From: an uncultured Phycicoccus sp.
GTDB taxonomy: Bacteria; Actinomycetota; Actinomycetes; Actinomycetales; Dermatophilaceae
Length of the DNA: 64,000 bases
Reading direction: 5' to 3'
NCBI RefSeq assembly: GCF_947495705.1
Contig: NZ_CANLZR010000002.1
Location: 248,001 to 312,000 of the forward strand
In this document: piece by piece, positions 32,216 to 60,553 of the stretch
Layout of the letters: every line of letters begins with the position of its first letter
How positions within the stretch are numbered: the stretch's first letter is position 1
Translations under genes and position numbers: made by a program
Notes under the pieces: generated by a model
The model's database searches: none
Seen by the model: the letters and a program-made list of their open reading frames with translations, nothing else
Told to the model about the DNA's origin: nothing

Positions 32216-33349
32216 ATGGCAACCGACGCGACCCCGACCGGCGGCCGGCACCGGTCACGCACCCGCCGCGGCCCGGCCCCCGCCGCGACCCGTCCCGGGT
32301 CCACGGGCCCCCGTCTCGAGGGGCTCGACGTCGCGCGCGGCCTGGCGGTGCTCTCGATGCTCGTCGCCCACCTCAGCCCCGTCGGGGGCGTGCTCGACGT
32401 CTCGGAGTACCTGACCGCCCCCCTGTTCGCCGTGACGATCGGGGTCGCCCTCGGGGTGCGGCTGTCCCGCGCCGATGTCGACCGGCGCCGGATCGTGGCC
32501 GACGACGTCCTGCGCGGAGTGCTGCTCGTGCTCGTCGGCGTGCTGCTGCAAGCGCTCTACGGCCAGATCGACGTCGTCCTGCCCTACCTCGGCGTGCTCG
32601 TCGTCGTCCTCGCGCCGCTCGCGCTGCTGCTCCGCCGCCTGCCGGTGCTCACGCTCGGGCTCGTCACGGCCGGCGCCGTCCTCGGCCCGCTCGTCACCGA
32701 GCGGCTCCGCGACCGGGTCGCCGCCGACCCGTCGGTCGCGGCCGGGGTGACCGGGGACCTCCTGCGCTGGGTCGCGACGGGCCCGAACTACCGGCTCGTC
32801 TCGTTCCTCCCGATGGCGCTGGCCGGGGTCGTCCTCGTGCTGCTCCTGCCCCGCCTCACCCGCTTGGCGCTCACGTCCGGCATCGCGGCCGTCCTGCTCG
32901 GCACGAGCGCGGTCATCCACCTGATCGGGCGGACCACCGAGGACGGTGCCGCGCCCTACTCCGGGACGACCGCCGAGGTCCTGGCCGCGACGTTCCTCGC
33001 GTGTGGCGCCGTCGTCGCATCCTTCGCCGTCGTGCTGCTCGTGCGCGGCCCGGCCCCCGGCCTCGCGCGCGCTCTCACCCCGGTCCTGGCGGTCGGGCGC
33101 CTCGCCTTCACCGCCTACACGGTGCAGATCCTCGTCCTCGCCGCCATCTCGCTCGCGCGCGGCGGAGCCGACGACGACACCTGGCCGGTCCTCGTCGGGA
33201 CGACGGCGGTCGTCGTCGGCGTGTGCTGGGTGCTCGACCGCCGCGTCGGCACCGGCCCGCTCGAGGCCCTCGTCCGGGCCACCCGGATGCCGTCCCGCGG
33301 CCGCCACGGCGGGCCGCTCAGCGGACTGCGGCCTCCGCGAGCGCGGTGA
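32216..33349 (+). CDS. DUF1624/HGSNAT-type acyltransferase-like membrane protein
   Basis: The 377-residue protein has a basic 30-residue N-terminus and about ten hydrophobic segments. The first one follows [23 protein letters not shown], the typical beginning of the heparan-alpha-glucosaminide N-acetyltransferase/acyltransferase-3-like (DUF1624, DUF418) families, and [16 protein letters not shown] recalls the C-terminal DUF418 motif. Such proteins may move acyl groups across the membrane onto sugars; the substrate is unknown. The last 32 bases overlap the end of the convergent DUF1116 gene. Confidence 0.8.
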
Positions 33350-34724
33350 TCGCCGCCGTGAAGCACTGCTCCGGGGGCGTGACGAGCCCGGCGCCCACCT
33401 GACCGGTCCCTGCGACCCGTCCGGCCATCCCGGTGTTGATCTGCGGGAGCTCGCCGGTGCGCACCACGGCCGTCACGTCGATCCCCACCGGCGTGCCCCG
33501 GAAGCCGAGGATCGGCACCTGGTACATGGGGTGCTCCCCCACCGTGACCTCGTACATCCGCCGGGTCGCGGCGAGCGCGAAGGGGACGTCGCCGCCGACG
33601 AACTTGACGATCGCGGGCGCGGCCGCCATCGCGAGCCCGCCGATGCCGCCGGTCTCGGTGATGGCCGAGTCGCCGATGTCGGGGTTGGCGTCCTCCGGGC
33701 CGAAGTCCCCGAGGAACAAGCCTTCCGGGGTGTTCGCCGGGCCGGTGAACCAGGCGTCGCCGGTGCCCGAGACGCGGATGCCGAAGTCGGTGCCGTTGCG
33801 CGCCATCGTCGTGACGACGGTGGAGCCCGCGATGCCCTCGGCGGCCCGGGTCGCGAGCTTGCACGCCGGCATCCCGAGGTTGAGGAAGAAGTGCTCGTTG
33901 GCGCCGGAGAAGCGCACGGCCTCGGCCACGTCGGTCGCGGGCGCGTCGGTGGTGATCATCCCCGGCAGCAGCTCGCGCAGCAGCATGAGCGACCCCGCCC
34001 GGTTCCGGTTGTGCCCCTCGTCGCCCATCTGGAGCATCTGCGCGATGATCGCCCGGATGTCGACGGGCCCGACGGACCGCACCGCCTGCTGCAGGATCGG
34101 CCCGAGGACCTCGCCCATCCACCGCAGCCGGTCGATGACCTCCGGCCCGTACGCGCCGTACCGCAGGACCTTGCCGAGGCCCTCGTTGAGCGAGCACCAC
34201 GAGTCGTTCCCGTGCACCTCGTCGCGCAGGACGTAGACCCACATCGACGGGCTGACGACCCCGGCCATCGGGCCGACGCCACCGCGGTGGTGGCACGGCT
34301 CGAGGTCGAAGGCCCCGGCGGCCAGGTGCCGCTCGGCCTCCTCGGCGGTGTCGGCGAGGCCCTCGAGCAGGACGGCGCCGACGAGCGCGCCGCGCATCGG
34401 GCCCGACGCCCGCTCCCACGTGACCGGCGGCCCCGCGTGCAGGAACGTCCCCCGCTCGAGCCCGAGCGCCTCCGACGCCGGGAGGACGTCGACGAGGACC
34501 GCCTCGGCGGCGGTCATCCGGGCCACCGCCTCGGCGTTGGCGGCGACCCGGCGCGGGTCGGCCATGACCGCGGCGAGCGCGGCCTCGGTGCCGGGCAGCG
34601 GCGGGTGCCAGCCGGCGTCCACGACGGGGACCGCCTGGTCGCGCAGGGCGTCGGCGAACAGGGCGACGCCCGCGGTGGCGACGACGGGGTCGGCGGCCAG
34701 CAGACCGCGCAGCGGGGCGCTCAT
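33318..34724 (-). CDS. DUF1116 protein, AllG (YlbE)-like subunit of an oxamate-type carbamoyltransferase
   Basis: A 468-residue protein of the DUF1116/YlbE family. Conserved-looking blocks are PCHHRGGVGPMAGVVSPSMWVYVL (about residues 145-168), MGDEGHNRNRAGSLMLLREL, NEHFFLNLGMPACKLA and VTTMARNGTDFGIRVSG. In Escherichia coli the homologue works with FdrA and YlbF as oxamate carbamoyltransferase (AllFGH), which phosphorolyses oxalurate to oxamate and carbamoyl phosphate. The three homologues here overlap end to end (ATGA junctions), so they should form one complex. Because oxalurate-forming enzymes are not in this window but a ring-opening amidohydrolase and carbamate kinase are, another ureido acid may be the substrate. 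Confidence 0.86.
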   Translation of the reverse strand: MSAPLRGLLAADPVVATAGVALFADALRDQAVPVVDAGWHPPLPGTEAALAAVMADPRRVAANAEAVARMTAAEAVLVDVLPASEALGLERGTFLHAGPPVTWERASGPMRGALVGAVLLEGLADTAEEAERHLAAGAFDLEPCHHRGGVGPMAGVVSPSMWVYVLRDEVHGNDSWCSLNEGLGKVLRYGAYGPEVIDRLRWMGEVLGPILQQAVRSVGPVDIRAIIAQMLQMGDEGHNRNRAGSLMLLRELLPGMITTDAPATDVAEAVRFSGANEHFFLNLGMPACKLATRAAEGIAGSTVVTTMARNGTDFGIRVSGTGDAWFTGPANTPEGLFLGDFGPEDANPDIGDSAITETGGIGGLAMAAAPAIVKFVGGDVPFALAATRRMYEVTVGEHPMYQVPILGFRGTPVGIDVTAVVRTGELPQINTGMAGRVAGTGQVGAGLVTPPEQCFTAAITALAEAAVR

Positions 34725-36214
34725 CGGGCACCTCCGAGCAGGGCGACGGCGTGCCGGGTCGCCGCCGCGTTGGACAGGAACACCGACGCCCCGGCGGCGG
34801 CGAGGACGCGGGCGCACTCGGCCCGGTCCTGTGGGTCGGCCTCGGTGCCCGTGAGCGAGACGACGACCGGGAGCCGTCGCCCGGCGGCCGACGCCCGGTC
34901 CCGCGCGTCCCGGATCGCGTCGGCGAGCTCGCCGGCGGGGTCGGGGTGGGCGCCGTGGCCGAGCACGAGGTCGAGCAGCAGGACGCCGCAGGTGGGGTCC
35001 GTGGCCTCGGCGGCGATGCGCTCCATCCGCAGCGTCGGGTCGATCATCGGGTGCGCCCGCCCGCGGGTGAGCTCATCGGCGCCGAAGTCGACGACGACGT
35101 GGCCGTCGTGGCGCAGGTCCGGCCCGAGCGCGAGACCGGGGTCGTGGCCGAGGTTGGTGCGGACCTCGCCGAGCGTCTCGGCCGCGACGAGCATCGTCTC
35201 CTCGGCGAGGGTGCCCCCGCAGAAGAGGCCGCGCAGGGACGGCCCCTGCGGGCCGGCGGCGTCGGCGTCCACCGTCGTCGCGGGCCAGGCCGGGACGTCG
35301 ACGCCCTCGGCGGCCAGGGCGGCCTCGACGGCAGCGGTGAGGTCGGCCCGCCCGGCGCCGAGGATGGCCCAGTGGACCCGCAGGCCGAGCCCCGAGGCCT
35401 GGTGCTCGACCGACGCGAGCACGTCGGCGTCCGGCGGCTTGGACACGACGACCACCCACCCGGTGGCGGGGTCCTCGGCGAGTGCGCGCAACGCCTGGCG
35501 GGTGGACCGGCCGGCCACCGCGGCCGTGAGGTCGCGCCCGCCGACCCCGAGGCAGTGGCTCACGCCGACGCCGGCGGCGTCGAGCAGGCACATGACCTGC
35601 TGGGCCCCGGTGCCCGACGCCGCGACGATGCCGACGGGACCGGCGCGCACGACGTTGGCGAAGCCCAGCGCGACGCCCCCGACGAGAGCGGTGCCGCAGT
35701 CCGGACCCATGACGAGGACGTCGGCCGCGGCGGCGGCGTCCTTGAGCCGCACCTCGTCCTCGACGGCGACGTTGTCGGAGAAGAGCATCACCGAGGCGCC
35801 GGCGGCGATCGCGTCGTAGGTCTCGGTGACGGCGTGCGCCCCGGGGACCGAGACCAGGGCGAGCGTCGCGCCCGACCGGCGGACCGCCGACCCGAGGGTG
35901 GCGGGCGGGACCTCGTCGGCCGCGCCGGTGCCGGCGGAGCTCTGCGAGATGGCGCGCAGGGCGTCCTCGACGGCCGCCAGACCCGCCGCGAGGCCGCTGT
36001 CGTCGTCGGCTCGAAGCGCGACGACGAGGTCGTTGGGTGCCGCTGCACCGGGCACCGCGAAGCCCATGCCCGTGAGGACCTCGACGTTGAGCTCGGTGGC
36101 CATCGCGACCTGCGCCGCCTGCACGCCCGCGGTGCCCGCGACCGCCCGGGACACCTGCAGGAGGCTCACCGAGTCGTGGTAGGCGCCGCGGCGGAGCTCG
36201 ACGTGGACGGTCAT
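34721..36214 (-). CDS. fdrA: FdrA (AllF)-like acyl-CoA synthetase-fold subunit
   Basis: The 497-residue FdrA-family protein resembles succinyl-CoA synthetase alpha and beta subunits fused in series. Seen: AYHDSVSLLQVSRAV at the start, the CoA-ligase-like ADVLVMGPDCGTALVGG (about residues 167-183), GIVAASGTGAQQVMCLLDAAG, CLGVGGRDL, and a C-terminal GHGAHPDPAGELADAI. FdrA in E. coli is the AllF subunit of oxamate carbamoyltransferase. It overlaps the DUF2877 gene upstream and the DUF1116 gene downstream by four bases each. The swivelling phospho-His of true succinyl-CoA synthetase was not identified with certainty. Confidence 0.9.
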   Translation of the reverse strand: MTVHVELRRGAYHDSVSLLQVSRAVAGTAGVQAAQVAMATELNVEVLTGMGFAVPGAAAPNDLVVALRADDDSGLAAGLAAVEDALRAISQSSAGTGAADEVPPATLGSAVRRSGATLALVSVPGAHAVTETYDAIAAGASVMLFSDNVAVEDEVRLKDAAAAADVLVMGPDCGTALVGGVALGFANVVRAGPVGIVAASGTGAQQVMCLLDAAGVGVSHCLGVGGRDLTAAVAGRSTRQALRALAEDPATGWVVVVSKPPDADVLASVEHQASGLGLRVHWAILGAGRADLTAAVEAALAAEGVDVPAWPATTVDADAAGPQGPSLRGLFCGGTLAEETMLVAAETLGEVRTNLGHDPGLALGPDLRHDGHVVVDFGADELTRGRAHPMIDPTLRMERIAAEATDPTCGVLLLDLVLGHGAHPDPAGELADAIRDARDRASAAGRRLPVVVSLTGTEADPQDRAECARVLAAAGASVFLSNAAATRHAVALLGGAR

Positions 36215-37053
36215 ACGGCGACCCTTTCGGAGGAGGTGAGGGCCTCGAAGGCGGCGGACACCCCGGCGACGAGGTCACGCCCCGAGGTGTGCCCGATGGC
36301 CAGCACGGCCGGCAACGCTGAGCGGGCCCGGGCGGCGTCACCCCGCCCGACGGCGGTCACGAGGTCGACGACCTCGCCGGTGGCGAACCCGTCAGCGGCG
36401 GCCTGGAGGAGAGCGGCCGAGACGGCCGTCGTGGCCCATGCCCGGGCGCGGACCGCGTCGAGAAGCGGGTCCGGCGCACCCGGGCGCGGCCCCCGGCCGA
36501 GGGAGCGGCGCACGAGCAGTGCCCCGGCGAGCGCGTCGTCGCCGCTCGGGGTGAGCCCGGGCCCGCGCCCGACGAGGGCCGTCACCGCCTCCCGGGGGTC
36601 GGCGTCCCGCACGGCACGGGCGACCCCGGCGGTGAGCCAGTCGTCGCCGCCCGCGAGCGGGGCCCGGAGCACGGTGCAGACGTGAGCCAGGTCGCCCCGG
36701 TCCGTGGCACAGGTAGCGGGCACGCGGGCCGGACGCCACGTCCGCACGCCGCGCACGACGACGGTGGGCAGGCGGATGGCCCCGGCACCGACGACGGCGA
36801 TGTCCCCGGGCCGGGCCCCGAGCCGCACCTCCCCGGAGGGCTGCCCGAGCCGCACGGCGCCGGGCAGCGCGAAGGCGTCGCTGGTGAGGACGGGCAGGAC
36901 GCGGTCGCCGACACCCAGATACACGCCGGCCCGCGACGCGGCGAGGACGACGGCGGTGTGCCGTGGCCCCCGGACGAGGTCGGCGGTGAGCGGCGAGAGC
37001 GCCCCCGGCAGCACCGGCGGCCCACACGCCGGGGCGGGTGCGGGCGAGGACAT
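36211..37053 (-). CDS. DUF2877 protein, AllH (YlbF)-like subunit
   Basis: A 280-residue soluble protein. GRGPGLTPSGDDALAGALL (about residues 162-180) and LAIGHTSGRDLVAGV (about 251-265) are the two signature stretches of DUF2877, the third part of the FdrA-YlbE-YlbF complex. It is first in its operon. The ATG is 6 nt after TAGCGT, so the mRNA is probably leaderless. It is divergent from pucR with only 34 bp between start codons. Confidence in the family is high; the physical role of this subunit is not known to me. Confidence 0.86.
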   Translation of the reverse strand: MSSPAPAPACGPPVLPGALSPLTADLVRGPRHTAVVLAASRAGVYLGVGDRVLPVLTSDAFALPGAVRLGQPSGEVRLGARPGDIAVVGAGAIRLPTVVVRGVRTWRPARVPATCATDRGDLAHVCTVLRAPLAGGDDWLTAGVARAVRDADPREAVTALVGRGPGLTPSGDDALAGALLVRRSLGRGPRPGAPDPLLDAVRARAWATTAVSAALLQAAADGFATGEVVDLVTAVGRGDAARARSALPAVLAIGHTSGRDLVAGVSAAFEALTSSERVAV

Positions 37054-37059
37054 ACGTCG

Positions 37060-37087: not shown

Positions 37088-38434
37088 ATGGTGAGAGTTG
37101 CCAACGATGGCGATGCCGACACACAGACCTTGACAGCCGACGAGGCCGAGGTGGTTCGGCTGACCGCGGTCGTGGAGCAGCAGCGCGCCCTCCTCGAGCG
37201 CGAGGACGAGGTGCACCGGGTCCTCGTGCGGGTCGTCCTCGACGGCGGCGGCCTGCCCGAGATCGCCGGAGCGGTCGCCGGGTTCTTCGGTGGCGCGGCG
37301 GTCGTGACGACCACCGACGGGCGAGTCCTCGCCCAGGCCGGGTCCCTGCCCGGCCACGCCTCGCCGACCGAGCTGGACTGCTTCGACCGCACCGGGCGGC
37401 TCGTCGTCGAGCACGAGCCGGTGGGGCGGCGCGGCCCGGGCGGCGCCGCGGACCCGGCACGGGCCTTCGTGCGGATCGTCGCCGGCTCGGCCGACCTCGG
37501 GGTCCTCGGCGCCTTCTCCCCCGACCGCCCGCTGGGAGCCCCGGACGTCCACATGCTCGAACGGGCCGCCACCGTCGCGGCACTCGCCGTGACGAAGGAG
37601 CAGGCGGTGGCCGCCGTCGAGGGCAAGTACCGCGCCGAGTTCCTCCGTGACGCTCTCGCCGGGCGCGCCGGCGACGCGCACGACGCCGCCTCGCACGCCA
37701 CGTCGCTCGGCTGGGACATCGACCGGCCCCTCGTCGTCGTCGTCGCCGAGACCGACGAGAACGACGCCGAGTCCACGCGCACCACCGCCGAGGTCCGTGA
37801 CCTGCAGGACCGGTTCGCCCGGGCGTGGACCCAGGCGGTGCGCTCCCGCGACCCCTCGGTGGCCGTCGCCGGGTTCAGCCAGGAGGTCGTCGTGCTGCTC
37901 CCGGTCCCCGAGGACGCCGACGCCGACGCCGTGCTGCGGCCGGTGGGCGACCTCGTCCGCGTCGTCCGCGGCGACGGCGGCGGGGGCCGTCGCACCTTCA
38001 CCGCCGGGGTGTCCCGGCTCGTCACCTCCGCCGCCGACCTGCCGCGCGCCTACGACGAGGCGTTGACGGCGGTGCACGTGGGCCGGCAGGTGGACGGCGG
38101 CTCGGGCCTGGCGCACTTCGACCAGCTCGGCATCTACCGGCTGCTCGCGCTCGTGCCGGACTCCGCGGACCTGCGGCGGTTCGTCACCGAGAGCCTGGGC
38201 GAGCTCGCGATCGACGACGTGCCCGAGCACGCGGACCTGCGGCACACCCTGTCGGTGCTCATCGACACCAACCTCAACGTCGCCGAGACCGCACGCCGCC
38301 TGTTCTTCCACTACAACACGCTGCGCTACCGCATCGCCAAGCTCGAGCGGATGCTCGGCCCCTTCACGACCGACCCCCAGCTGCGGCTCACCCTGGCGCT
38401 GGCCCTGCGGGTGCACCGGATGAAGGGCATCTGA
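37088..38434 (+). CDS. PucR-type transcriptional regulator
   Basis: The 448-residue protein has a GAF-like sensor region (about 40-190), a GGDEF-like middle domain with GVSRLVTSAADLPRAYDEA (the CdaR/PucR diguanylate-cyclase-like fold), and a C-terminal helix-turn-helix: LSVLIDTNLNVAETARRLFFHYNTLRYRIAKLERMLG (about 395-431) with the PucR HTH_30 signature NVAETARRLFFHYNTLRYRI. PucR proteins control purine and related nitrogen-base catabolism, often as activators that sense a pathway intermediate. Its divergent, nearly overlapping position with the carbamoyltransferase genes points to these as a target. Confidence 0.93.
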   Translation: MVRVANDGDADTQTLTADEAEVVRLTAVVEQQRALLEREDEVHRVLVRVVLDGGGLPEIAGAVAGFFGGAAVVTTTDGRVLAQAGSLPGHASPTELDCFDRTGRLVVEHEPVGRRGPGGAADPARAFVRIVAGSADLGVLGAFSPDRPLGAPDVHMLERAATVAALAVTKEQAVAAVEGKYRAEFLRDALAGRAGDAHDAASHATSLGWDIDRPLVVVVAETDENDAESTRTTAEVRDLQDRFARAWTQAVRSRDPSVAVAGFSQEVVVLLPVPEDADADAVLRPVGDLVRVVRGDGGGGRRTFTAGVSRLVTSAADLPRAYDEALTAVHVGRQVDGGSGLAHFDQLGIYRLLALVPDSADLRRFVTESLGELAIDDVPEHADLRHTLSVLIDTNLNVAETARRLFFHYNTLRYRIAKLERMLGPFTTDPQLRLTLALALRVHRMKGI

Positions 38435-39111: not shown

Positions 39112-39624
39112 TCAGCCGTCGAGCGGCTCGTCGAGCCGGGCGTCGGAGTCCCAGTGCCGAGCGCGGTCCAGGGCGGCCTCGCGCTCGGGGGCCTGCGCGA
39201 GGAGCGCCAGCGCCTCGGCGACCTGGCCGCCTGCCAGCCGGCGCCCGAGGGTGACGTGCGGGGTCCACCGGTCCGGGACGAGCAGATCCGAGGCAAGCGG
39301 TGGCAGCCGGTGGACGAGGTCGCGGTGCAGCGCGAGCAGCGCGCCGGTGGCGACGACGAGGCGGGCCAGGACGTAGGGGTCCCGGCCGAACACGACGGGC
39401 GCGCCGAGCCGGACCGGCAGCGGCAGGACGGCCAGGGGGGCGAGCACGTCCTGGCGGGCGCCGACGACGGGCCAGTCCTTGGTCATCGCCAGGGTGACGT
39501 GGGGCCGGTTGGACGTGCTGCGGTGCTGCGCCTGGCTCGGCAGCCCGGCCTCGTCGAGCAGCCGCCACTGGTCGCGGACCGCCGCGTCGGTGTCGGGGTC
39601 CAGGAGCAGCTCGACATGGTGCAC
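39112..39624 (-). CDS. 2H phosphoesterase (LigT-like)
   Basis: The 170-residue protein has HxT motifs RPHVTLAMT (about residues 40-48) and WTPHVTLGRRL (about 120-130), the catalytic pairs of the 2H fold. The start MHHVELLLDPDTDAAVRDQW is typical of the YjcG/LigT-like branch. It probably acts on RNA or nucleotide cyclic phosphates. It is distinct in sequence from the other 2H protein at 12868-13392. An ATG with no strong ribosome site is used. Confidence 0.84.
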   Translation of the reverse strand: MHHVELLLDPDTDAAVRDQWRLLDEAGLPSQAQHRSTSNRPHVTLAMTKDWPVVGARQDVLAPLAVLPLPVRLGAPVVFGRDPYVLARLVVATGALLALHRDLVHRLPPLASDLLVPDRWTPHVTLGRRLAGGQVAEALALLAQAPEREAALDRARHWDSDARLDEPLDG

Positions 39625-39930: not shown

Positions 39931-40179
39931 TCAGCGGTGGGGCGGGTCGTCGGGGAGCGCGGCGAACGCCTTCTTCGTGGCCCGGTACCAGCCCATCCCC
40001 TTGACAGGGTTCCGCCATCGGCCCTTCATCTCGTCGTGCGCCTGCTGGTGCGCCGTGTCCCCGGCTCGCACCTGGTCCTCGAGGTGGCGGTCCTGGGCCT
40101 TGATGACGTCATCGGCGCTCGCACCCGGCAGCTCGTGGTCGCACGGGCCGCCGAGCTGCCGGCAGGTCATGGTCTTCAT
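39931..40179 (-). CDS. DUF1059 small protein
   Basis: The 82-residue protein matches the DUF1059 family: TMTCRQLGGPCDHELPGASADDVI at the start (two Cys and a His that could bind metal), then AQDRHLEDQVRAGDTAHQQAHDEMKGRW and an extra C-terminal NPVKGMGWYRATKKAFAALP. The start overlaps the stop of the sigma factor gene by four bases, so the two are translated together. Function unknown. Confidence 0.88.
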   Translation of the reverse strand: MKTMTCRQLGGPCDHELPGASADDVIKAQDRHLEDQVRAGDTAHQQAHDEMKGRWRNPVKGMGWYRATKKAFAALPDDPPHR

Positions 40180-41063
40180 CGGGTCTCCTTCGGTCGGGGT
40201 AGGGGTCGGGGTGGCGCCGTGGCGCCGGGCCGCCGCACGACCCGGGCGAGCACGCCCGGGTCGGCACGGAAGACGATGCCGCTGACGACGCCGTCCTCGA
40301 CGGTGATGTCGAAGAGCACCCGGGCCTCGCCTCGGTGGTACCAGGCGGCGCCGGGCCGGTCGCCGACGAGCACGGGGAGGGCCGCCTTCGCCGCACCGTC
40401 GAACATCGCGGCCACCGCCTGGCGCCCTTCGAGCCGCTCGGGCGTCCCGGTGGCGACCGCGGCCGCGTCCGCGGTGACGACGACATCCGGAGCGAGCAGG
40501 GCGAGGAGCCGGCGGAGGTCCCCGCCGCGGGCCGCGGCGAGGAAGGCGTCGACGACCTCCCAGTCGGCCGGTGCGCCCTCGGTGGAGGCGGCACGGACCT
40601 TGGCTCGCGCCCGCGAGGCCAGCTTGCGGGCGGCGGCCGGGGACGTGTCGAGCGTCGCGGCGACCGTGGCGAACTCGACCCCGAAGGTGTCATGGAGGAC
40701 GAAGGCGACCCGCTCGCCCGGGGTCAGCCGGTCGAGCACCACCTGGAGGGCGACGCTCACGGTGTCGGCGAGGGCGACCCGGTCGGCGGGGTCCGGCACC
40801 GCGTGCAGCGTCGGTCCGCCGGCCGCGAGGACCTCGGTCGGCTCCGTCGGGACCGGCGTCCGGGCCCGGAGCCGGTCGAGGCACAGCCGGGTCACCACCG
40901 TCGTCAGCCAGCCCGCCAGGTTCTCGATGTCACCGTCGGCGTGGTGCAGGCGGAGCCACGACTGCTGGACGACGTCCTCCGCCTCCGCAGGGTCGCCGAG
41001 GACGCCGCCCGCGATGCGCAGCAGCCGCGGCCGTTCGGCCTCGAACCGTTCGATCCCGTCCAT
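40176..41063 (-). CDS. ECF41/SigJ-like sigma factor with SnoaL-like C-terminal domain
   Basis: A 295-residue ECF sigma factor. Region 2 includes AEAEDVVQQSWLRLHHAD and NLAGWLTTVVTRLCLDRLRAR; region 4 is LTPGERVAFVLHDTFGVEFATVAATLDTSPAAARKLASRARAKV. The C-terminal 110 residues (from about 185) form a SnoaL-like domain (DAFLAAARGGDLRRLLALLAPDVVVTADA), which in ECF41 factors replaces a separate anti-sigma factor. ATG 41063 is favoured, with GGAGGGG upstream; the next gene encodes a DUF1059 protein. Targets are unknown. Confidence 0.92.
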   Translation of the reverse strand: MDGIERFEAERPRLLRIAGGVLGDPAEAEDVVQQSWLRLHHADGDIENLAGWLTTVVTRLCLDRLRARTPVPTEPTEVLAAGGPTLHAVPDPADRVALADTVSVALQVVLDRLTPGERVAFVLHDTFGVEFATVAATLDTSPAAARKLASRARAKVRAASTEGAPADWEVVDAFLAAARGGDLRRLLALLAPDVVVTADAAAVATGTPERLEGRQAVAAMFDGAAKAALPVLVGDRPGAAWYHRGEARVLFDITVEDGVVSGIVFRADPGVLARVVRRPGATAPPRPLPRPKETR

Positions 41064-41308
41064 GGTGCGCACCCCTCCGTCGACGAAGCCTGCCACCGTG
41101 GTGACGATCGCCGAGGGGGAGATGTGACGGCCCGGTGTCCGCGACGGGTCGCGCGGCCTCACCGCGACGGCACTGTGCCAACGGTCCGGGCCTTCGGCTG
41201 TCAACCATTGCTGAGGGTGTCGCCGGACAGCGTCACTAGGTTCCCGGTATCACGGTCCCTGTGAGCCGCGCCGGAGTGGGCGCGGACCCGGCTGGAAGAG
41301 GTCACCGC

Positions 41309-49358: not shown

Positions 49359-49482
49359 CCGGCGCCGGGGGCCCGGTTCCCGCGACCACGCCCCCGACCC
49401 CGCAGCACCCGATACCCTCACCGGGACGGCGCCCGCGGACCGCGGCGCCACGGTCGTCGCCGGGGACGGGAAGGACGCACGC

Positions 49483-49980
49483 ATGCAGGTCACGATGCTC
49501 GTCATCGGAGGGATCGGGATCCTGCTGCTCCTGGTGTCCTTCGTCCTCGGTGACATCCTCGACGGGGTCCTCGACAGCATCGGCCCCGAGGCCTTCTCGG
49601 GCCTGGCGATCGCCGGCTTCCTCGCCGCCTTCGGGTTCGTCGGCGCGCTCACCCTCGACACCGGCGCCTCCGCGGGCGTGGCGATCATCGCCGGTCTCGT
49701 GGCCGGCGTGGCCGCAGGTGCCGGGGCCGGGTATGCGAGCAGCCGCCTCATGCGCGGCGGCGACGAGTCCACCGTGCGGACCTCCGGGCTCGTCGGCCTC
49801 AGCGGGACCGTCGTCGAGGCCGTCCCGGCCGACGGCTACGGCATGGTCAGCGTCACCGCGGCCGGCCACATCACCCGGCTCAACGCGCGCTGCGAGGAGC
49901 CGCTCCCAGGCGGCACCGCGGTCGTCGTCACCGCCGTCCTCAGCCCCACCTCCGTCATGGTGTCGCGCCGCGGCAGCTGA
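49483..49980 (+). CDS. NfeD-like membrane protein
   Basis: The 165-residue protein has three membrane helices (about residues 4-85) with small residues and a C-terminal OB-fold (about 98-165) with GLVGLSGTVVEAVPADGYGMVSV, the NfeD short form. NfeD proteins pair with flotillins or stomatins in membrane microdomains. The flotillin gene follows 96 bp later and the pair is a standard unit. GGAAGGA is the ribosome site. Confidence 0.9.
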   Translation: MQVTMLVIGGIGILLLLVSFVLGDILDGVLDSIGPEAFSGLAIAGFLAAFGFVGALTLDTGASAGVAIIAGLVAGVAAGAGAGYASSRLMRGGDESTVRTSGLVGLSGTVVEAVPADGYGMVSVTAAGHITRLNARCEEPLPGGTAVVVTAVLSPTSVMVSRRGS

Positions 49981-51675: not shown

Positions 51676-51874
51676 TGCCATCGCCAGGACCAGTTCCACC
51701 ACCGCTGAGGGCAGAGGGCCGGCCTGTCTGGTGTTCGGTGCCGACACCACGCCGGATTGCCCGACCCGGCTCCACGGCCGCACCGCCGGGTTGGCGAGGA
51801 TGGGGGCGGATCGGCCCGTCCGTCGGCAGCATCTGCCAACGCGACCCGGCACGGTTGCCGGTTGGATCGTGGGC

Positions 51875-54082
51875 ATGGCGGTTGCGCAGCGGCGGATCAG
51901 GGTCGGCATCGACACCGGCGGGACGTTCACCGACGTCGTCGCCGTCGACGAGGACTCCGGCGAGGTCCTGACGACCAAGACGCCGAGCACTCCGGCCAAC
52001 CCCGCCGACGGGTTCATCGCGGGCATCGAGAAGATCCTCGACCTCATGGGTGCCTCCGGGCACGACCTGAGCGCGGTGAGCCACGGGACGACGGTGGCGA
52101 CGAACAAGCTGCTCGAGGGCAAGGTCGAGCGGCTCGGCTTCGTGACGACCGAGGGCTACGAGTTCATGCTCGAGATCGCCCGGCAGGCGGTCCCCGACGG
52201 CTACGGCAACTCGTACTTCTGGGTCAAGCCGCCGCGCATCGTGCCGGCCGACGCGGTGCGCACCGTCCGCGGCCGCCTCGACGTCTCCGGGGCGGAGGTG
52301 CGCCCGTTCTCGGAGGAGGACGCCGTGGCCGCCGCCCGGTGGTTCCGCGACCGGGGCATCACGACGATCGGGGTCTGCTTCCTGCACTCCTACGCCGACG
52401 ACACCCACGAGCTGGCGATGCGCGAGGTGCTGCGCCGCGAGCACCCCGACGCGGTCGTGTCGATCAGCAGCGAGGTCCTGCGGGAGTACCGCGAGTACGA
52501 ACGGGCGATGACCACGCTCGTCGACGCCGCCGTCAAGCCGAACGTCAGCCGGTACGTGACGAACATCCACGAGCGGCTCGACGGCTTCACCGGCGGGCGG
52601 CCGGTGCCGTTCTACGTCATGAAGTCCAACGGCGGGGTGCTCTCGGCCGACGAGGTCGTCCATCAGCCGATCACGACGGTGCTGTCGGGGCCGGCGGCCG
52701 GGGCGCTGGGGGCGGCCCTGATCGCCGAGCGGGCCGGCTTCCCGAAGGTGCTCACGTGTGACGGCGGCGGGACCTCCACCGACGTGTCCGTCGTCCTCGA
52801 CGGGGAGCCCACCCTGACGACCGAGGGGTCGGTGGGCGCGTACCCGAGCAAGATCCCGATGATCGACGTCGTCACCGTCGGCGCCGGCGGCGGGTCGATC
52901 GCCTGGGTCTCCCCCGAGGGGATGCTCAAGGTCGGACCGCACTCGGCCGGGGCCGACCCGGGGCCGCTCTGCTACGCCCGTGGGGGCACGGACCCGACGA
53001 TCACCGACGCGCACGTCGTCCTCGGCCGCATCCCCCCGCACCTGCTGGGCGGCGAGATCCCGCTCGACGTCGAGGCGGCCCGGTCCGGGCTCGTCGCGCT
53101 CGCCGAGCGGCTCGGGCTCGGGCTCGAGCGGTGCGCGGCCGGGGTCCTCGAGATCTCGGCGTGGAACCAGGCGAACGCGCTGCGCCAGGTGTCGGTCAAG
53201 CGGGGCCTGGACGTCCGCGACTTCATGCTCACGACGTTCGGGGGGTCCGGGTCGCTGCTCGCGTGCCGGCTCGTCGACGTCCTCGACCTGGCCGGGGTCG
53301 TGGTGCCGATGAACCCGGGCAACCTCAGCGCGTTCGGGCTGCTCACCGTCGACGTCCGCAACGACTACGTCCAGACCCACGTCGCCCGGCACGACGGCCT
53401 CGACCTCCGCGCGGTCGCCGCGGTCCTGGACACCCTGACCGGCCGGGCCACGGGCGCCCTGCGGGCCGAGGGGTTCGCCGACGCAGAGCACGAGTTCGTC
53501 CGCACCGCCGACCTGCGCTACTTCGGGCAGGCCTACGAGGTCCGGGTGCCCGCCGGTCCCGGCGTGGTCGACCAGGCGTGGGCGGCCGACGTCGCCCGGC
53601 ACTTCCACGACGAGCACCGCCGCCTGTACGGGTACGACTTCCGCGACGACCCGACCCAGCAGGTCGAGTGGGTGAACCTGCGGGTCACCGGCGTCGGACC
53701 GATCACCCGCCCCGAGCCCCAGCCCCTCCCCGAGCGCACCCCCGACCCCACATCGACCAATAGGTCACAGCAGGTACACACCCCCGACCCCACATCGACC
53801 GATAGGTCACAGCCGGTCCACACCCCCGACCCCACCTCGACCGATAGGTCACGCGAGGTCCACGTTCCCGGTCTGCGCTCGACCCGGGATGTCTGCTTCG
53901 ACCCCGACGACGGGTACGTGCCCACCCCGGTCCTCTGGCGCCCCGACCTGCGCGCCGGCGACACCTTCAGCGGCCCCGCCATCGTCGAGGAGTTCGGCTC
54001 GACCGTCCCGGTCCACCCCGGCTTCGCCGTCCGCGTCGACACCTGGGGCAACCTCGTCATCACGAAGGAGCCGACCCGATGA
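51875..54082 (+). CDS. Hydantoinase A/oxoprolinase-family ATPase subunit with an internal repeat
   Basis: The 735-residue protein belongs to the HyuA family, which includes N-methylhydantoinase, 5-oxoprolinase and acetone/acetophenone carboxylase subunits. Actin-like ATPase motifs are IRVGIDTGGTFTDVV (about residues 7-21), SHGTTVATNKLL, and DGGGTSTDVSVVLDG. The C-terminal domain is interrupted by three copies of a 14-residue unit, TPDPTSTxRS plus variable end (about residues 622-663). Its stop overlaps hyuB. The reaction would be ATP-driven opening of a cyclic amide or a carboxylation. ATG 51875 is chosen; GTG 51869 is possible. Confidence 0.88.
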   Translation: MAVAQRRIRVGIDTGGTFTDVVAVDEDSGEVLTTKTPSTPANPADGFIAGIEKILDLMGASGHDLSAVSHGTTVATNKLLEGKVERLGFVTTEGYEFMLEIARQAVPDGYGNSYFWVKPPRIVPADAVRTVRGRLDVSGAEVRPFSEEDAVAAARWFRDRGITTIGVCFLHSYADDTHELAMREVLRREHPDAVVSISSEVLREYREYERAMTTLVDAAVKPNVSRYVTNIHERLDGFTGGRPVPFYVMKSNGGVLSADEVVHQPITTVLSGPAAGALGAALIAERAGFPKVLTCDGGGTSTDVSVVLDGEPTLTTEGSVGAYPSKIPMIDVVTVGAGGGSIAWVSPEGMLKVGPHSAGADPGPLCYARGGTDPTITDAHVVLGRIPPHLLGGEIPLDVEAARSGLVALAERLGLGLERCAAGVLEISAWNQANALRQVSVKRGLDVRDFMLTTFGGSGSLLACRLVDVLDLAGVVVPMNPGNLSAFGLLTVDVRNDYVQTHVARHDGLDLRAVAAVLDTLTGRATGALRAEGFADAEHEFVRTADLRYFGQAYEVRVPAGPGVVDQAWAADVARHFHDEHRRLYGYDFRDDPTQQVEWVNLRVTGVGPITRPEPQPLPERTPDPTSTNRSQQVHTPDPTSTDRSQPVHTPDPTSTDRSREVHVPGLRSTRDVCFDPDDGYVPTPVLWRPDLRAGDTFSGPAIVEEFGSTVPVHPGFAVRVDTWGNLVITKEPTR
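53738..53863 (+). repeat. 42-bp tandem repeat, three copies, in frame in hyuA
   Basis: Three units of exactly 42 bases at 53738, 53780 and 53822. Each holds CCCGACCCCAC, then TCGACC-GATA-GGTCA (AATA in unit 1). The GACC/GGTC arms form a short hairpin. Codons AGG, TCA and AAT are unusual in this genome, unlike the rest of hyuA. Confidence 0.92.
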
Positions 54083-56061
54083 CCGCCGACGCGCTGCTCC
54101 CCGCCGACCTCGAGGCCTACCTCGCCGCGGCCCCGGCCAACCCGGCGGGCCTCCCGACCGCGTACGAGCACGGCGGTCGCCTCACCCCCGAGGGGTCGGC
54201 GGTCGACCCGATCCTCGTCGAGATCGTCCAGGGCACCCTCGCCTCGGTCGAGATGGAGGTCGAGACGGCCATCGCCCGCACCTCGCGCTCCCCGATGATC
54301 CGCGACGCCCACGACTTCCGGGCCGGCATCCACGACCGGCAGCTGCGCAAGCTGACCGGCCGCTCGTACTCCGCACTCGTGCACCCGATCGTGCGGGACT
54401 TCCCCATCGAGCAGATGCGCGAGGGCGACGTCTACTTCCACAACGACGTGTACGAGTCCGAGGGCGGCATCGGCCACCTCCCCGACCTCTGCGTCACCGT
54501 GCCGGTCTTCCACGACGGCGAGGTCGTCGCGTTCGTCCAGGCGTTCGGGCACCACGACGACATCGGCGGCGCCGTCCCGGGCTCGATGCCGAGCGGGGCC
54601 CGGACGGTGTTCGAGGAGGGGCTGGCGGTCCCCCCGATCAAGCTGTGGGACGCGGGCACCCCGAACCGGGCGGCGCTGCGGATCATGACCCGTAACTCCC
54701 GCATGCCCGACAGCCTCGCCGCGGACCTCGACGCCGAGTGCTCGGCCTGCCTCATGGGCGCCCGGCGCCTCGGCGAGCTGTTCGCCCGCTACGGGCGCAG
54801 CACCGTGGAGACCGCGTTCGACGCCATCCTCGACGCGACGACCGAGACGTACCGCCGCGAGATCCTCGACCGGATCCCGGACGGCTCGTACGTCTGGGAG
54901 GACTACGCCGAGCACGACGGCGTCGACGACCCGATGCTGCACACCCAGCGGATCACCCTGACCAAGACGAGCACCGGCGGCCCCGGCCCCGGCGACGGCG
55001 GGCCGCGGATCATCCTCGACTTCACCGGGACCAGCGCCCAGGCGAAGGGCCCCATCAACCACTGCGGCGACTACGTCGGCGGCAACTTCCTCAAGAAGTG
55101 GCTCGCCCCGATCCTGCGCAACCTCGCCGACTCCCCCGAGCGGATGGCCGAGCTCGACGTCAACGAGGGCGTCGTGCCACTCATCGAGATGCGCTTCCCC
55201 GAGAAGGGCACGCTGCTGACCCCGGTGCACCCGGCTCCGACCAACGCCCGCACCTTCGTCATCCTCCGGCTGCTCGGGGTGCTCGCCGGGGTCGTCGCCA
55301 AAGCCGTCGACGGCCGGATGCCCGCCGACCAGGAGACGATCCGGTACACCGGCGTCTACGGCAAGGACCGTGACGGCAACGACTACCTCATGCGCGAGGT
55401 GCTGGGCGGCGGCTCGGGCGGGCGGTACTACGCCGACGGCGAGGACACCATCCACGTCGTCCCCGACAGCCGCAACCTGCCCACCGAGTTCACCGAGAGC
55501 CGCTTCCCGTTCCGGGTCGAGCGGCTCGGGCTCGCGGTCGACTCCGGCGGGGCCGGGCGGCACCGCGGCGGCCTCGGCTACGAGAAGCACATCCGGATGC
55601 TCCAGGACGCGCACTTCATGTCGATCGCCGACCGGTCGATCCTCGCCTGCTGGGGGGTCAAGGGCGGCAAGGCCGGCCGGTCGTTCGAGGTGACCGTCGA
55701 CCTGGGCGGTCCCGACGAGCGGGTCGTCGACGCCCTCGCCGACGCCGAACCGGTGCGGGCCGGGCAGGTCGTCCGGATCCGGACCACCGGTGGTGGCGGC
55801 TGGGGCGACCCGCTCGAGCGGCCCTACGAGGAGGTCGAGCGCGACCTGCGCTGGGGCAAGGTCTCCTTCGACGGCGCCCGCCGGGACTACGGCGTGGTCG
55901 CGACCGGGACGAAGGACGACCCGGTGGTCGACACCGCCGCCTCGGACGCGCTGCGCGAGGCGCGGCGAGCCGAGCGCGGCGCGGAGCCCTTCTTCGACCG
56001 CGGCCCCGGCTACGCCAGACTGTCGGGCGGCGCGGCCGCCGCCGACGTCGACTGGCTCTAG
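54079..56061 (+). CDS. Hydantoinase B/oxoprolinase-family subunit
   Basis: The 660-residue HyuB-family protein forms the catalytic partner of HyuA. It shows DPILVEIVQGTLASVEMEVETAIARTS near the start, GHLPDLCVTVPVF, GPINHCGDYVGGNFLKKW and a C-terminal RIRTTGGGGWGDPLERPYEEVERDL, the family end. HyuAB pairs hydrolyse or carboxylate with ATP. It lies directly after hyuA with a four-base overlap, and the CaiB gene follows 9 bp after its stop, so all three form an operon. The exact substrate is not clear. Confidence 0.9.
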   Translation: MTADALLPADLEAYLAAAPANPAGLPTAYEHGGRLTPEGSAVDPILVEIVQGTLASVEMEVETAIARTSRSPMIRDAHDFRAGIHDRQLRKLTGRSYSALVHPIVRDFPIEQMREGDVYFHNDVYESEGGIGHLPDLCVTVPVFHDGEVVAFVQAFGHHDDIGGAVPGSMPSGARTVFEEGLAVPPIKLWDAGTPNRAALRIMTRNSRMPDSLAADLDAECSACLMGARRLGELFARYGRSTVETAFDAILDATTETYRREILDRIPDGSYVWEDYAEHDGVDDPMLHTQRITLTKTSTGGPGPGDGGPRIILDFTGTSAQAKGPINHCGDYVGGNFLKKWLAPILRNLADSPERMAELDVNEGVVPLIEMRFPEKGTLLTPVHPAPTNARTFVILRLLGVLAGVVAKAVDGRMPADQETIRYTGVYGKDRDGNDYLMREVLGGGSGGRYYADGEDTIHVVPDSRNLPTEFTESRFPFRVERLGLAVDSGGAGRHRGGLGYEKHIRMLQDAHFMSIADRSILACWGVKGGKAGRSFEVTVDLGGPDERVVDALADAEPVRAGQVVRIRTTGGGGWGDPLERPYEEVERDLRWGKVSFDGARRDYGVVATGTKDDPVVDTAASDALREARRAERGAEPFFDRGPGYARLSGGAAAADVDWL

Positions 56062-56070: not shown

Positions 56071-57252
56071 GTGACCGGACCGCTGGACGGCATCACCGTC
56101 GTCGACCTCTCCCGCGCCCTCGCCGGGCCGCACGCGACGATGCTGCTCGGCGACCTGGGCGCGCGCGTCATCAAGGTCGAGTCCGCCGCCGGGGACGACA
56201 CCCGCGGCTGGGGGCCGCCGTTCGTCGGGCCCGAGGACGACCCGGTGTCGACGTACTTCCTGGCGGCCAACCGCAACAAGGAGTCGATCGTCCTGGACCT
56301 GAAGTCCGACGACGGCCGCCAGACCCTGGCCCGGCTCGTCCGGCACAGCGACGTCCTCGTCGAGAACTTCCGCCCCGGCGTCATGGAGCGGCTCGGCTTC
56401 GACGTCGCCCGGCTCCACGAGCTCAACCCCGGGCTCGTCGTGCTCGCGATCAGCGGCTTCGGGCACGACGGCCCCGAGGGCGGCCGGCCCGGCTACGACC
56501 AGATCGCCCAGGGCGAGGCAGGCCTGATGTCGGTGACGGGTCCGGGCCCCGACGAGCCGACGCGCATCGGCGTCCCCATCGGCGACCTGCTCGCGGGCCT
56601 GCACGGCGCCTACGGGGTCGCGGCCGCGCTGCGCGAGCGTGAGATCACCGGGCGCGGGCGCGTCGTACGCACCTCGCTGCTGGCCTCCGTCGTCGGGGTC
56701 CACGCCTTCCAGGGCACCGCGTACACCGTCGCCGGGCAGGTCGGGCGCGCCCAGGGCAACCACCACCCCGCACTCGCCCCGTACGGGCTGTTCCACGCCT
56801 CCGACGGTCCCGTGCAGGTGGCGATCGGGGCCGAAGGGATGTGGGTGCGCTTCGCCGAGGCGTTCGGCATCGACCCGGCGGACCCGCTGCTCGCGACCAA
56901 CGCGGCCCGGGTGACCAACCGGGAACACCTCATCGAGGTGATCGACGCCGCGTTCGCGTCCTGGACCGCGCTCGACCTGCTCGCCCGGTTGGCCGAGCTC
57001 GGGATCCCCGCCGGCAAGGTCCGCAGCATCGACGAGGTCTACGACTGGGACCAGACCCGCTCGCAGGGCCTCGTCATCCCCGTGGACCACCCCGTCCTGG
57101 GCCCGATCGAGCTGCCCGGGTCCGCGCTGCGCTTCGACGACAACGCCCACAGCGGGGGCCGCGAGACCCACCTGCCGCCGCCGGGGCTCGACGAGCACGG
57201 CGCCGCCGTCCGGGCCTGGCTCGACGAGCAGGACGGACCCGCCCCCCGCTGA
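56071..57252 (+). CDS. CaiB/BaiF-family CoA-transferase
   Basis: A 393-residue class III CoA-transferase. Family marks: DLSRALAGPHATMLLGDLGARVIKVE (residues 12-37), NRNKESIVLDLKSDDGRQ, GDLLAGLHGAYGVAAAL with the catalytic Asp (about residue 170), and the C-terminal NAARVTNREHLIEVI. Such enzymes move CoA between carboxylic acids, for example from succinyl-CoA or formyl-CoA to oxalate or malonate. It would fit activation of the acid left by a ring-opening pathway. The GTG lies 9 bp after hyuB, with GGGAGGA as ribosome site. Confidence 0.9.
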   Translation: MTGPLDGITVVDLSRALAGPHATMLLGDLGARVIKVESAAGDDTRGWGPPFVGPEDDPVSTYFLAANRNKESIVLDLKSDDGRQTLARLVRHSDVLVENFRPGVMERLGFDVARLHELNPGLVVLAISGFGHDGPEGGRPGYDQIAQGEAGLMSVTGPGPDEPTRIGVPIGDLLAGLHGAYGVAAALREREITGRGRVVRTSLLASVVGVHAFQGTAYTVAGQVGRAQGNHHPALAPYGLFHASDGPVQVAIGAEGMWVRFAEAFGIDPADPLLATNAARVTNREHLIEVIDAAFASWTALDLLARLAELGIPAGKVRSIDEVYDWDQTRSQGLVIPVDHPVLGPIELPGSALRFDDNAHSGGRETHLPPPGLDEHGAAVRAWLDEQDGPAPR

Positions 57253-58413: not shown

Positions 58414-58458
58414 CGAGGTCCGGGCACGCGCCCGGTGAGCCGACGGAGCGAGGTGACG

Positions 58459-59403
58459 ATGCGGGTCCTGCTGGCACTCGGCGGCAACGCGATGACGGGC
58501 CCGGACGGCAGCGCCACCCCCGCGGCCCAGATCGCGGCCGTCACCGGCGCCATGGAGGCGGCAGCCCGGCTCGTCGCGGCGGGGCACGAGCTCGTCATCA
58601 CCCACGGCAACGGCCCCCAGGTCGGCAACCTCCTCGTCAAGAACGAGCTCGCCGCGCACGTCGTCCCGCCGGTCCCGCTGGACTGGTGCGGGGCCCAGAC
58701 CCAGGGGACGCTCGGCTTCACCATCCTCGACGCACTCGACGCCGCGCTCGCCCGGGCCGGTGCGACCCCCCGGGTCGCTGCCCTGGTCACCCGCACCCTC
58801 GTCGACCGCGACGACCCCGGGTTCACCCACCCGAGCAAGCCGGTCGGACGCTACCTCGACGAGGCGCAGGCGCGGCGGATGATCGACCACGACCAGGTGT
58901 GGGAGGACCGCGGCGAGAAGGGCTGGCGGCGCGTCGTCGCGTCCCCGGAGCCGCTGGAGGTGCTCGACGTGGGGGCGGCCCGCACCCTCGTCGACGCCGG
59001 GTACGTCGTCGTCGCGGCCGGCGGGGGCGGCATCCCGGTGGTGCGCGAGCCCGACGGGACCCTGCGGGGTGTCGAGGCGGTCATCGACAAGGACCTCACG
59101 GCGGCGCTGCTCGCCCGGGCACTGGACGCCCACGTCCTCGTCATCGCCACCGACGTCGCCCACGCGGCCGTGGGCTTCGGCACCGACGCCCAGCGGGACC
59201 TCGGCCGGGTCACGCTCTCGGAGCTGCACCGGCTCGCCGACGACGGGGAGTTCGCCCCGGGCTCGATGGGCCCGAAGGTCGAGGCCGTCTCCCGCTTCGT
59301 CGCCGGCGGCGGTGCACGCGGCGTCATCACCTCACTCACCCACATCACCGACGCCGTCGACGGTGCCTTCGGGACCGTCGTCGAGCCCGACCCGACCGCC
59401 TGA
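58459..59403 (+). CDS. arcC: Carbamate kinase
   Basis: The 314-residue amino acid kinase-fold enzyme makes ATP from carbamoyl phosphate and ADP, releasing carbamate. [14 protein letters not shown] (residues 4-17), [18 protein letters not shown] (about 48-65), [11 protein letters not shown] and [13 protein letters not shown] (about 209-221) are the family motifs; length is right. No arginine deiminase or ornithine carbamoyltransferase gene is near, so its carbamoyl phosphate must come from elsewhere; the FdrA-DUF1116-DUF2877 complex in this window is the obvious candidate. The next gene is the ring-opening amidohydrolase, 22 bp on. GGAGCGAGG upstream supports ATG 58459. Confidence 0.94.
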
Positions 59404-59425
59404 CCCGCTACGAGAGGAATCCGCC

Positions 59426-60553
59426 GTGCCCGACGCCATCGAGGTCCGCAAGGTCCCCCTGCACTCCGTGTCCGACGCCTCCGAGCTCGGCGCGCTCATC
59501 GACGCCGGCATCATGGAGGCCGACCGCGTCATCGCCGTCATCGGCAAGACCGAGGGCAACGGCGGGGTCAACGACTACACCCGGATCATCGCCGACCGGG
59601 CCTTCCGCGAGATGCTCGTCGCCAAGGGCGCCGACCCCGAGCGGGTCAAGGACGTCCCGATCGTGTGGTCCGGCGGCACCGACGGGGTCATCAGCCCGCA
59701 CGCGACGATCTTCGCCACCGTGCCGGCCGACCGGGCCGAGCAGACCGACGAGCCGCGCCTCACCGTCGGCTTCGCGATGAGCGAGACGCTGCTGCCCGAG
59801 GACATCGGGCGCACCGCCATGGTCAGCAAGGTCGCCGACGCGGTGCGGGTCGCGATGGAGCGCGCCGGCATCAGCGACCCCGCCGACGTGCACTACGTCC
59901 AGACCAAGACCCCGTTGCTCACGATCGACACGATCCGGGACGCGAAGAGCCGGGGGCACGACGTCTTCACCGAGGACACCCTGACCTCAATGGACGTCTC
60001 GAACGGCGGCACCGCGCTCGGCATCGCCGTGGCGCTCGGCGAGATCGAGATGCCCCGCGACGAGGACGTCCTGCGGGACCGCAGCCTGTACTCGTCGGTG
60101 GCCTCCTGCTCCTCGGGCGTCGAGCTCGACCGGGCCCAGGTCGTCGTCGTCGGCAACGCGCGCGGGGTCGGTGGCCGCTACCGGATCGGGCACTCCGTCA
60201 TGGCTGACGCCGTCGACCAGGACGGGCTGTGGGCCGCCATCCGCGACGCCGGCCTCGACCTGCCGGAGCGTCCGCACCACAGCGACCTGGACGGCCGGCT
60301 CGTCAACCTCTTCCTCAAGTGCGAGGCGAGCCAGGACGGGCGGGTCCGCGGGCGTCGCAACGCGATGCTCGACGACTCCGACGTGCACTGGCACCGGCAG
60401 ATCAAGGCCGCGGTCGGCGGCGTCACCGCGGCCGTGACCGGCGACCCCGCCGTGTTCGTGTCGGTGTCGGCGGCACACCAGGGCCCCGACGGCGGCGGCC
60501 CCGTGGCCGCCATCGTCGACCTCGGCGAGGACCCCACCGGCTACCGCCCCTGA
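59426..60553 (+). CDS. Ring-opening amidohydrolase (barbiturase/cyanuric acid hydrolase family)
   Basis: The 375-residue protein has three similar domains, each supplying a Ser and a Lys. Serines are in [15 protein letters not shown] (about residue 83), [17 protein letters not shown] (about 230) and [19 protein letters not shown] (about 350); lysines in [17 protein letters not shown] (about 41), [10 protein letters not shown] (about 160) and [17 protein letters not shown]. This family opens six-membered rings: barbiturate to ureidomalonate or cyanuric acid to carboxybiuret. The molybdenum hydroxylase and NCS2 permease in this window favour barbiturase; residues that separate the two were not checked against references. 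GAGAGGA supports the GTG start. It shares an operon with carbamate kinase. Confidence 0.9.

Follow-up and report, generated by a model that had tools for sequence, protein, structure and literature searches.

The window, a 64,000-nucleotide stretch of DNA (positions 248001-312000 of contig 2) from the 3.54-Mb genome of an uncultured Phycicoccus sp., carries a cluster in which genes for a barbiturase, a carbamate kinase and the three subunits of an AllFGH-type carbamoyltransferase occur together with genes for a nucleobase permease, a molybdenum hydroxylase, an amidase, HyuA, HyuB and a coenzyme A (CoA) transferase. Pfam and NCBIfam family scans, combined with a reading of the open reading frames (ORFs), gave the following inventory.

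33318-34724, minus strand: AllG-type subunit (PF06545, formerly DUF1116) of the carbamoyltransferase; Pfam 322 bits, sole copy in the genome.
34721-36214, minus strand: AllF/FdrA-type subunit; 383 bits to the NCBIfam FdrA model, whose cut-off of 433 is not reached, and 215 bits to the solved FdrA 3dmy.
36211-37053, minus strand: AllH-type subunit (PF11392); Pfam 82 bits, 4-bp overlap with AllF.
37088-38434, plus strand: PucR-type transcriptional regulator (PF17853 and PF13556), divergent from allHFG.
41261-42808, plus strand: NCS2 nucleobase permease (PF00860); nearest to RutG/uracil permease models (RutG 352 bits, below cut-off).
42911-43783, plus strand: FAD subunit (M) of the molybdenum hydroxylase (PF00941 and PF03450).
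43780-44283, plus strand: [2Fe-2S] subunit (S) of the molybdenum hydroxylase; cysteine motifs in the translation, 4-bp overlaps on both sides.
44280-46685, plus strand: large subunit (L) of the molybdenum hydroxylase, a proposed uracil (thymine) dehydrogenase; Pfam match, PYRGAGR loop, nearest solved relative quinoline 2-oxidoreductase.
46625-47314, plus strand: CoxG-like protein (PF06240).
47314-48213, plus strand: nitrilase-superfamily amidase (PF00795), a proposed malonamate amidase.
51731-54082, plus strand: HyuA subunit, from a family of ATP-dependent cyclic amide hydrolases; Pfam match, 452 bits to a solved N-methylhydantoinase.
54079-56061, plus strand: HyuB (PF02538), partner of HyuA.
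56071-57252, plus strand: class III CoA-transferase (PF02515, 386 bits), a proposed (methyl)malonate CoA-transferase.
58435-59403, plus strand: carbamate kinase; 249 bits to the solved carbamate kinase 1e19.
59426-60553, plus strand: barbiturase; 672 bits to the solved barbiturase 5hwe.

All three carbamoyltransferase subunits are encoded in one gene set, allG-allF-allH, with 4-bp overlaps on the minus strand, and the pathway genes from PucR to the barbiturase are divergent from this trio. Only 22 bp separate the carbamate kinase gene from that of the barbiturase, while about 21 kb lie between it and allH. A preliminary description of the locus, made from the sequence alone, named gene families that are all present, but omitted HyuA/HyuB, CoxG and the PucR regulator.

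The same description had placed the ring-opening enzyme in the barbiturase family, and the sequence evidence for this assignment is very strong. The protein scored 672.6 bits against the solved barbiturase 5hwe and at most 322.9 bits against solved cyanuric acid hydrolases. A key alignment column that holds Arg in the four aligned cyanuric acid hydrolases holds Asn in the window, in 93 of 93 relatives and in 5hwe, and the window Asn keeps the same spacing (32) from a Lys as does the cyanuric acid hydrolase Arg. In the portion of the paper cited here, Arg188 of A. caulinodans is kept by cyanuric acid hydrolases and lost in barbiturases, for which glutamine is printed (PMC4051656); Asn was seen here instead of the glutamine stated in that portion. 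The nearest matches, at 95% identity, come from Phycicoccus and Nostocoides. On the bit scores and the invariant Asn, identity as a cyanuric acid hydrolase was rejected. NCBIfam model NF052395 labels the protein (59426-60553) cyanuric acid amidohydrolase (475 bits, cut-off 360).

The molybdenum enzyme had been described as a hydroxylase not of the CO type, and this view is upheld. A CSFR active-site loop is the mark of form I aerobic CO dehydrogenase. The window's large subunit carries PYRGAGR instead, and YRGAGR was present in all 32 loci whose match spans the loop (42 loci in total, 10 without coverage of the motif region). Among solved proteins, quinoline 2-oxidoreductase (484 bits) and 6-hydroxypseudooxynicotine dehydrogenase (453 bits) outscored the CO dehydrogenases (364-415 bits), and these best relatives act on N-heterocyclic compounds. 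A CO dehydrogenase reading was rejected on the loop and on these scores. NCBIfam NF040766 names the subunit (44280-46685) aerobic CO dehydrogenase (1536 bits, cut-off 950) despite its setting in a barbiturase cluster; other annotations from this model may likewise be wrong.

The linkage of barbiturase, AllG and carbamate kinase far exceeds chance. Genomes were sampled in an order draw (198 genomes) and a phylum draw (296 genomes), which share G000, G051 and G067; in the phylum draw a barbiturase was called at 67% identity or more, the cyanuric-acid-hydrolase-like homologues lying at 41-44%. AllG was found in 16/16 barbiturase genomes of the order draw versus 4/182 others (Fisher, 3e-20), or by genus in 10/10 versus 2/63 (1e-10), values that overstate independence because the genomes are related. 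The phylum draw gave 14/14 versus 22/282 genomes without barbiturase, and AllG was present in none of the four genomes with only a cyanuric-acid-hydrolase-like homologue. We also assembled 80 barbiturase loci, of which 50, chosen by hand with isolates and longer contigs favoured, were tested for AllG; 47 of these 50 genomes had it (G200 and G214 have coordinates identical to those of G014 and G041 in this set). In 12 of the 16 order-draw genomes barbiturase and AllG share a contig, 18-47 kb apart, and the remaining four have them on different contigs; in further genomes of the phylum the two lie 6-17 kb apart in 8 of 11 and on different contigs in the other three. The preliminary description had suggested a genome search for such co-occurrence, and in both draws every barbiturase genome proved to carry AllG.

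Carbamate kinase is tied to the barbiturase more closely still. A copy of at least 50% identity is present in 75 of the 80 loci, and in 72 it lies less than 200 bp upstream of the barbiturase. The five exceptions are three Rhodococcus/Rhodococcoides loci, L081, whose genome gave no carbamate kinase match, and L035, which lies 1.5 kb away from the end of its contig. In the order draw this type of kinase (at least 54% identity) occurred in the 16 barbiturase genomes and in G092 and G206, all other matches being at most 48% identical. Together with the AllG counts, the position of the kinase led us to reject chance adjacency. The window kinase resembles the solved carbamate kinase 1e19 (249 bits) far more than acetylglutamate kinases (at most 32 bits); it misses the cut-off of the NCBIfam arcC model TIGR00746 (333.1 vs 358.25 bits), which is a score threshold and not a catalytic feature. 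According to the section of a report cited here, carbamate kinase genes are found close to most genes for catabolic transcarbamylases (PMC6022934).

In the window's class the usual order is allGFH divergent from PucR, permease, molybdenum genes, CoxG, amidase, HyuAB, CoA-transferase, carbamate kinase and barbiturase. Beyond this class most of the loci examined have the order barbiturase, permease, carbamate kinase, AllHFG, molybdenum genes, CoxG and amidase, with HyuAB in L147, L149 and L152, and the carbamate kinase adjoins AllH in several of them. PucR is divergent from AllH in the relatives too, and beyond the window's class it is divergent from the barbiturase. G320 (L148/L149) has another order again, and L147 is without carbamate kinase. 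Permeases beyond the class are 28-32% identical to that of the window, the one in L148 fitting xanthine-permease models best, below cut-off. A plasmid search returned 132 records, of which two, from Nonomuraea and Embleya and both lacking annotation there, reached at least 60% identity; the Embleya cluster has a further order, and its AllG is truncated where the stretch ends. Barbiturase, carbamate kinase, AllHFG and molybdenum genes nevertheless stay neighbours, joined by amidase and HyuAB in stretches long enough to include them, conserved in spite of REARRANGEMENT, and genes that remain together despite a reshuffled order are the usual sign of one pathway.

Our results suggest, as the more probable reading, that the locus serves oxidative pyrimidine catabolism with an ending in carbamoyl phosphate, and as a unit the joined pathway has strong support. 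The permease would import uracil and the molybdenum hydroxylase would oxidise it to barbiturate; the step from uracil to barbiturate is known in Rhodococcus. Barbiturase would open the ring to give ureidomalonate, which is an acyl-urea like oxalurate, the two being one CH2 apart. Phosphorolysis of ureidomalonate by AllFGH to carbamoyl phosphate and malonamate is the best inference for the next step, by analogy with oxalurate. Carbamate kinase would then use carbamoyl phosphate and ADP to form ATP, ammonia and CO2. Malonamate would be hydrolysed by the nitrilase (in other genomes by an amidase-signature enzyme), and the CoA-transferase would activate the malonate. For HyuAB the probable task is the opening of a second cyclic ureide, in the simplest case 5-methylbarbiturate derived from thymine. 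A firmer consequence than the yield of ATP is that the ureido nitrogen could leave as ammonia without urease.

The slot between CoxG and HyuA was scored in 27 loci, at thresholds of 50% identity for the nitrilase and 40% for the amidase: eight have a nitrilase, 13 an amidase-signature enzyme, none both and six neither. In this table L051 and L122 belong to one genome, as do L037 and L134 (both counted as neither), and L152 was scored as neither though it has a 30% amidase match. The two enzymes are unrelated and one substitutes for the other, a mutual replacement that supports the malonamate hydrolysis step. The class III CoA-transferase scored best against NCBIfam models for dicarboxylate CoA-transferases, none of which it matched above cut-off. 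In clusters of Rhodococcus and Embleya a carboxyltransferase (AccA/AccD-like fusion; L037:4337-5869, L074:8342, L162:15313) adjoins the CoA-transferase and perhaps serves (methyl)malonyl-CoA.

HyuA resembles N-methylhydantoinase (452 bits to the solved protein) more than 5-oxoprolinase (351 bits), and differs from this family in setting, since HyuAB of the window sits in a pyrimidine cluster. In the order draw 15 of the 16 genomes with barbiturase have HyuB at 79% identity or more, as do G092 and G206; of the 80 loci 51 show HyuB and 52 the CoA-transferase, many stretches stopping short of both. HyuAB is conserved with the cluster, including that of R. erythropolis (L134). Members of the HyuAB family use ATP, and N-methylhydantoinase is an ATP-dependent cyclic-ureide hydrolase. 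The AllG-positive neighbourhoods of barbiturase-negative genomes were read for 6 of 22 such genomes in the phylum draw and 4 of 4 in the order draw. G400, G278 and G379 have operons of molybdenum genes, HyuAB and AllFG, with no barbiturase match in the genome and a carbamate kinase match elsewhere, and G092 and G206 (L129, L130) have AllFGH, PucR, permease, molybdenum enzyme, HyuAB and carbamate kinase, with no barbiturase match. These clusters suggest that HyuAB alone is probably able to feed AllFGH, and 5-methylbarbiturate from thymine is probably the likeliest second ring.

The alternatives to a carbamoyl-phosphate ending of pyrimidine breakdown differ widely in probability. The trio could be the ordinary oxalurate enzyme of allantoin breakdown, merely neighbouring a barbiturase, which we consider very unlikely. 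AllD (ureidoglycolate dehydrogenase) makes oxalurate, and it passed the cut-off in 0 of 70 genomes; 13 had weaker matches and the window genome had no match. Allantoinase exceeded the cut-off in 22 of the 47 genomes with barbiturase and AllG, as an allantoin role would predict, but not in the other 25 nor in the window genome. E. coli AllFGH acts on oxalurate in the passages cited (PMC11326118), and the window AllG is 44-46% identical to E. coli AllG. In G182, a contrast case without barbiturase, AllG lies about 1.3 kb from allantoinase; yet an AllG tree separates the allantoin-linked rows from the barbiturase-linked rows, on long branches and with the pair itself at 91/52. This tree has 59 rows, drawn from 65 AllG rows above 85% coverage by removing L001, six duplicates and one short row and including the window and the annotated E. 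coli coding sequence. On the AllD and allantoinase results the allantoin explanation was rejected. The core idea of the preliminary description, a single pathway of barbiturase, AllFGH and carbamate kinase that allantoin does not explain, held up in the genome checks which it had itself suggested. Still less probable is a biosynthetic role, in which AllFGH and carbamate kinase would carbamoylate an amide; the kinetics of the E. coli enzyme were indeed taken with carbamoyl phosphate and oxamate, in the part cited (PMC11326118), but the permease, oxidase, ring-opening hydrolases, amidase and CoA-transferase make the setting look catabolic. A cyanuric acid pathway has the NCBIfam name of the ring opener in its favour, with its score above cut-off, but is the least probable of all given the twofold higher barbiturase score and the replacement of Arg.

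The main competitor is a split of roles, which we regard as unlikely but well short of negligible. Here HyuAB would make another ureido acid, derived for instance from 5-methylbarbiturate or a hydantoin, as the sole substrate of AllFGH and carbamate kinase, and the amidase or nitrilase would hydrolyse ureidomalonate to urea and malonate. Several observations favour it or otherwise weigh against the carbamoyl-phosphate ending. In the barbiturase-less clusters and operons described above AllFGH would act on a product that barbiturase does not make. The slot amidase of Nocardioides type is 41% identical to the amidase beside the R. erythropolis barbiturase, so that a urea-forming branch may exist, and the R. 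erythropolis cluster also has HyuAB. Two of 15 examined genomes with barbiturase and AllG (G050 and G519) gave no carbamate kinase match. Urease passed the cut-off in 7 of the 47 AllG-positive barbiturase genomes, and one more, G011, has a partial match that falls short of it; in the order draw 6 of the 16 genomes with barbiturase passed, one genome belonging to both sets. In Nonomuraea the 18 kb around the barbiturase hold HyuB (partial), CoA-transferase, carboxyltransferase and barbiturase, and within those 18 kb, the only stretch searched, there was no match to AllFGH or the kinase. It is the kinase-less genomes, the urease overlap, the slot-amidase likeness and Nonomuraea that make the split of roles the main competitor. 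Finally, since the HyuAB family uses ATP, a branch through HyuAB would net none; the term "ATP-yielding" used in the preliminary description is hence incomplete, as HyuAB would spend what carbamate kinase returns. Against a split stand the tracking of barbiturase by AllG in both draws, the position of carbamate kinase directly upstream of the barbiturase itself, the window genome without a urease match, and R. erythropolis (G026), which has HyuAB yet gave no AllG or carbamate kinase match.

The genomes that appear to end the pathway in urea bear on the same question. The three of 50 barbiturase genomes without AllG are all Rhodococcus/Rhodococcoides; none gave a carbamate kinase match, all three have urease, and their loci carry an amidase-signature gene directly after the barbiturase and a uracil phosphoribosyltransferase (UPRT) gene nearby. 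R. erythropolis is the organism in which a urea-forming ureidomalonase was described, and the amidase is a candidate ureidomalonase only. Barbiturase and ureidomalonase yield malonate and urea, as stated in a passage that cites Soong (PMC3758960). The R. erythropolis pathway resembles that of the window in barbiturase (84% identity to L037), molybdenum hydroxylase, permease, PucR, HyuAB and CoA-transferase; it differs in having urease and the adjoining amidase, whereas the window has AllFGH and carbamate kinase in a genome with no urease match. The same argument was made by Kim and Kim for urease-negative E. coli versus urease-positive Klebsiella, in the passage cited (PMC11326118). However, the three Rhodococcus genomes represent one lineage and so about one independent event, which lessens their weight for our reading, and since urease occurs in some AllG genomes, neither ending strictly excludes the other. 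The contrast between urease and AllG is therefore suggestive, not proof.

It is also possible, though we hold this wider view only tentatively, that AllFGH is a general acyl-urea phosphorylase and that the cluster degrades both uracil and thymine. HyuAB would then open 5-methylbarbiturate with ATP (and barbiturate where barbiturase is absent), both ureido acids would lead to carbamoyl phosphate with carbamate kinase repaying the ATP, and the urea route would be a Rhodococcus exception. In the lines cited of one report, other ureido compounds as sources of carbamoyl phosphate could not be ruled out (PMC6022934).

The barbiturate route of uracil breakdown described so far ends in urea and malonate, and among the matches listed in the open-licence literature no paper joined barbiturase with AllFGH or carbamoyl phosphate. 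If the carbamoyl-phosphate ending is correct, most of the barbiturase-bearing actinobacteria sampled would save energy and reclaim nitrogen by way of carbamoyl phosphate, and AllFGH would gain a second substrate. It would also suggest genes for malonamate hydrolysis and a function for a large subunit whose annotation is CO dehydrogenase, and the conserved HyuAB would call for a role. One of the closest known systems is the anaerobic oxalurate branch of E. coli (allFGH-allK), which shares AllF, AllG, AllH, carbamate kinase and acyl-urea chemistry; the window trio differs in neighbouring barbiturase and a molybdenum hydroxylase, not AllB, AllC, AllE and AllD. Comammox and archaeal nitrifiers have allFGHK beside biuret/triuret hydrolases, likewise outside a known upstream purine pathway, but in the excerpt cited the authors read this as oxalurate use and report no atzD in their nitrifier genomes (PMC12625717).

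Other settings of these genes were also seen. In L145 (13505-14906) a dihydropyrimidinase gene, read as two ORFs that overlap, lies between the permease and the barbiturase, bringing reductive and oxidative pyrimidine genes together; this gene and the UPRT of the R. erythropolis locus point to pyrimidines. In L155 (4152-9922) and L156 (8050-12595) an isochorismatase hydrolase, which comes nearest to the BiuH model without reaching its cut-off, accompanies AllF, AllG and carbamate kinase; this is a third setting for AllFGH. Beyond the window's class, L157, L158 and L159 have operons of the molybdenum M, S and L genes, HyuA, HyuB, AllF and AllG, with no barbiturase match and carbamate kinase elsewhere, possibly a ureide pathway in which HyuAB acts first. 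The G092 cluster also holds XdhC-, CoxE-, AAA ATPase- and MobA-like genes. In E. coli (L133), yahE-yahF-yahG-yahI (DUF2877, FdrA-like, DUF1116 and carbamate kinase-like) are followed by the amidohydrolase gene yahJ, and this set may serve yet another ureide. Within the window, five genes apparently unrelated by family are interspersed in the cluster.

39112-39624, minus strand: 2'-5' RNA ligase-like protein.
40176-41204, minus strand: sigma factor.
48225-49772, minus strand: methyltransferase.
50077-51615, plus strand: flotillin.
Near 57334, minus strand: EamA transporter.

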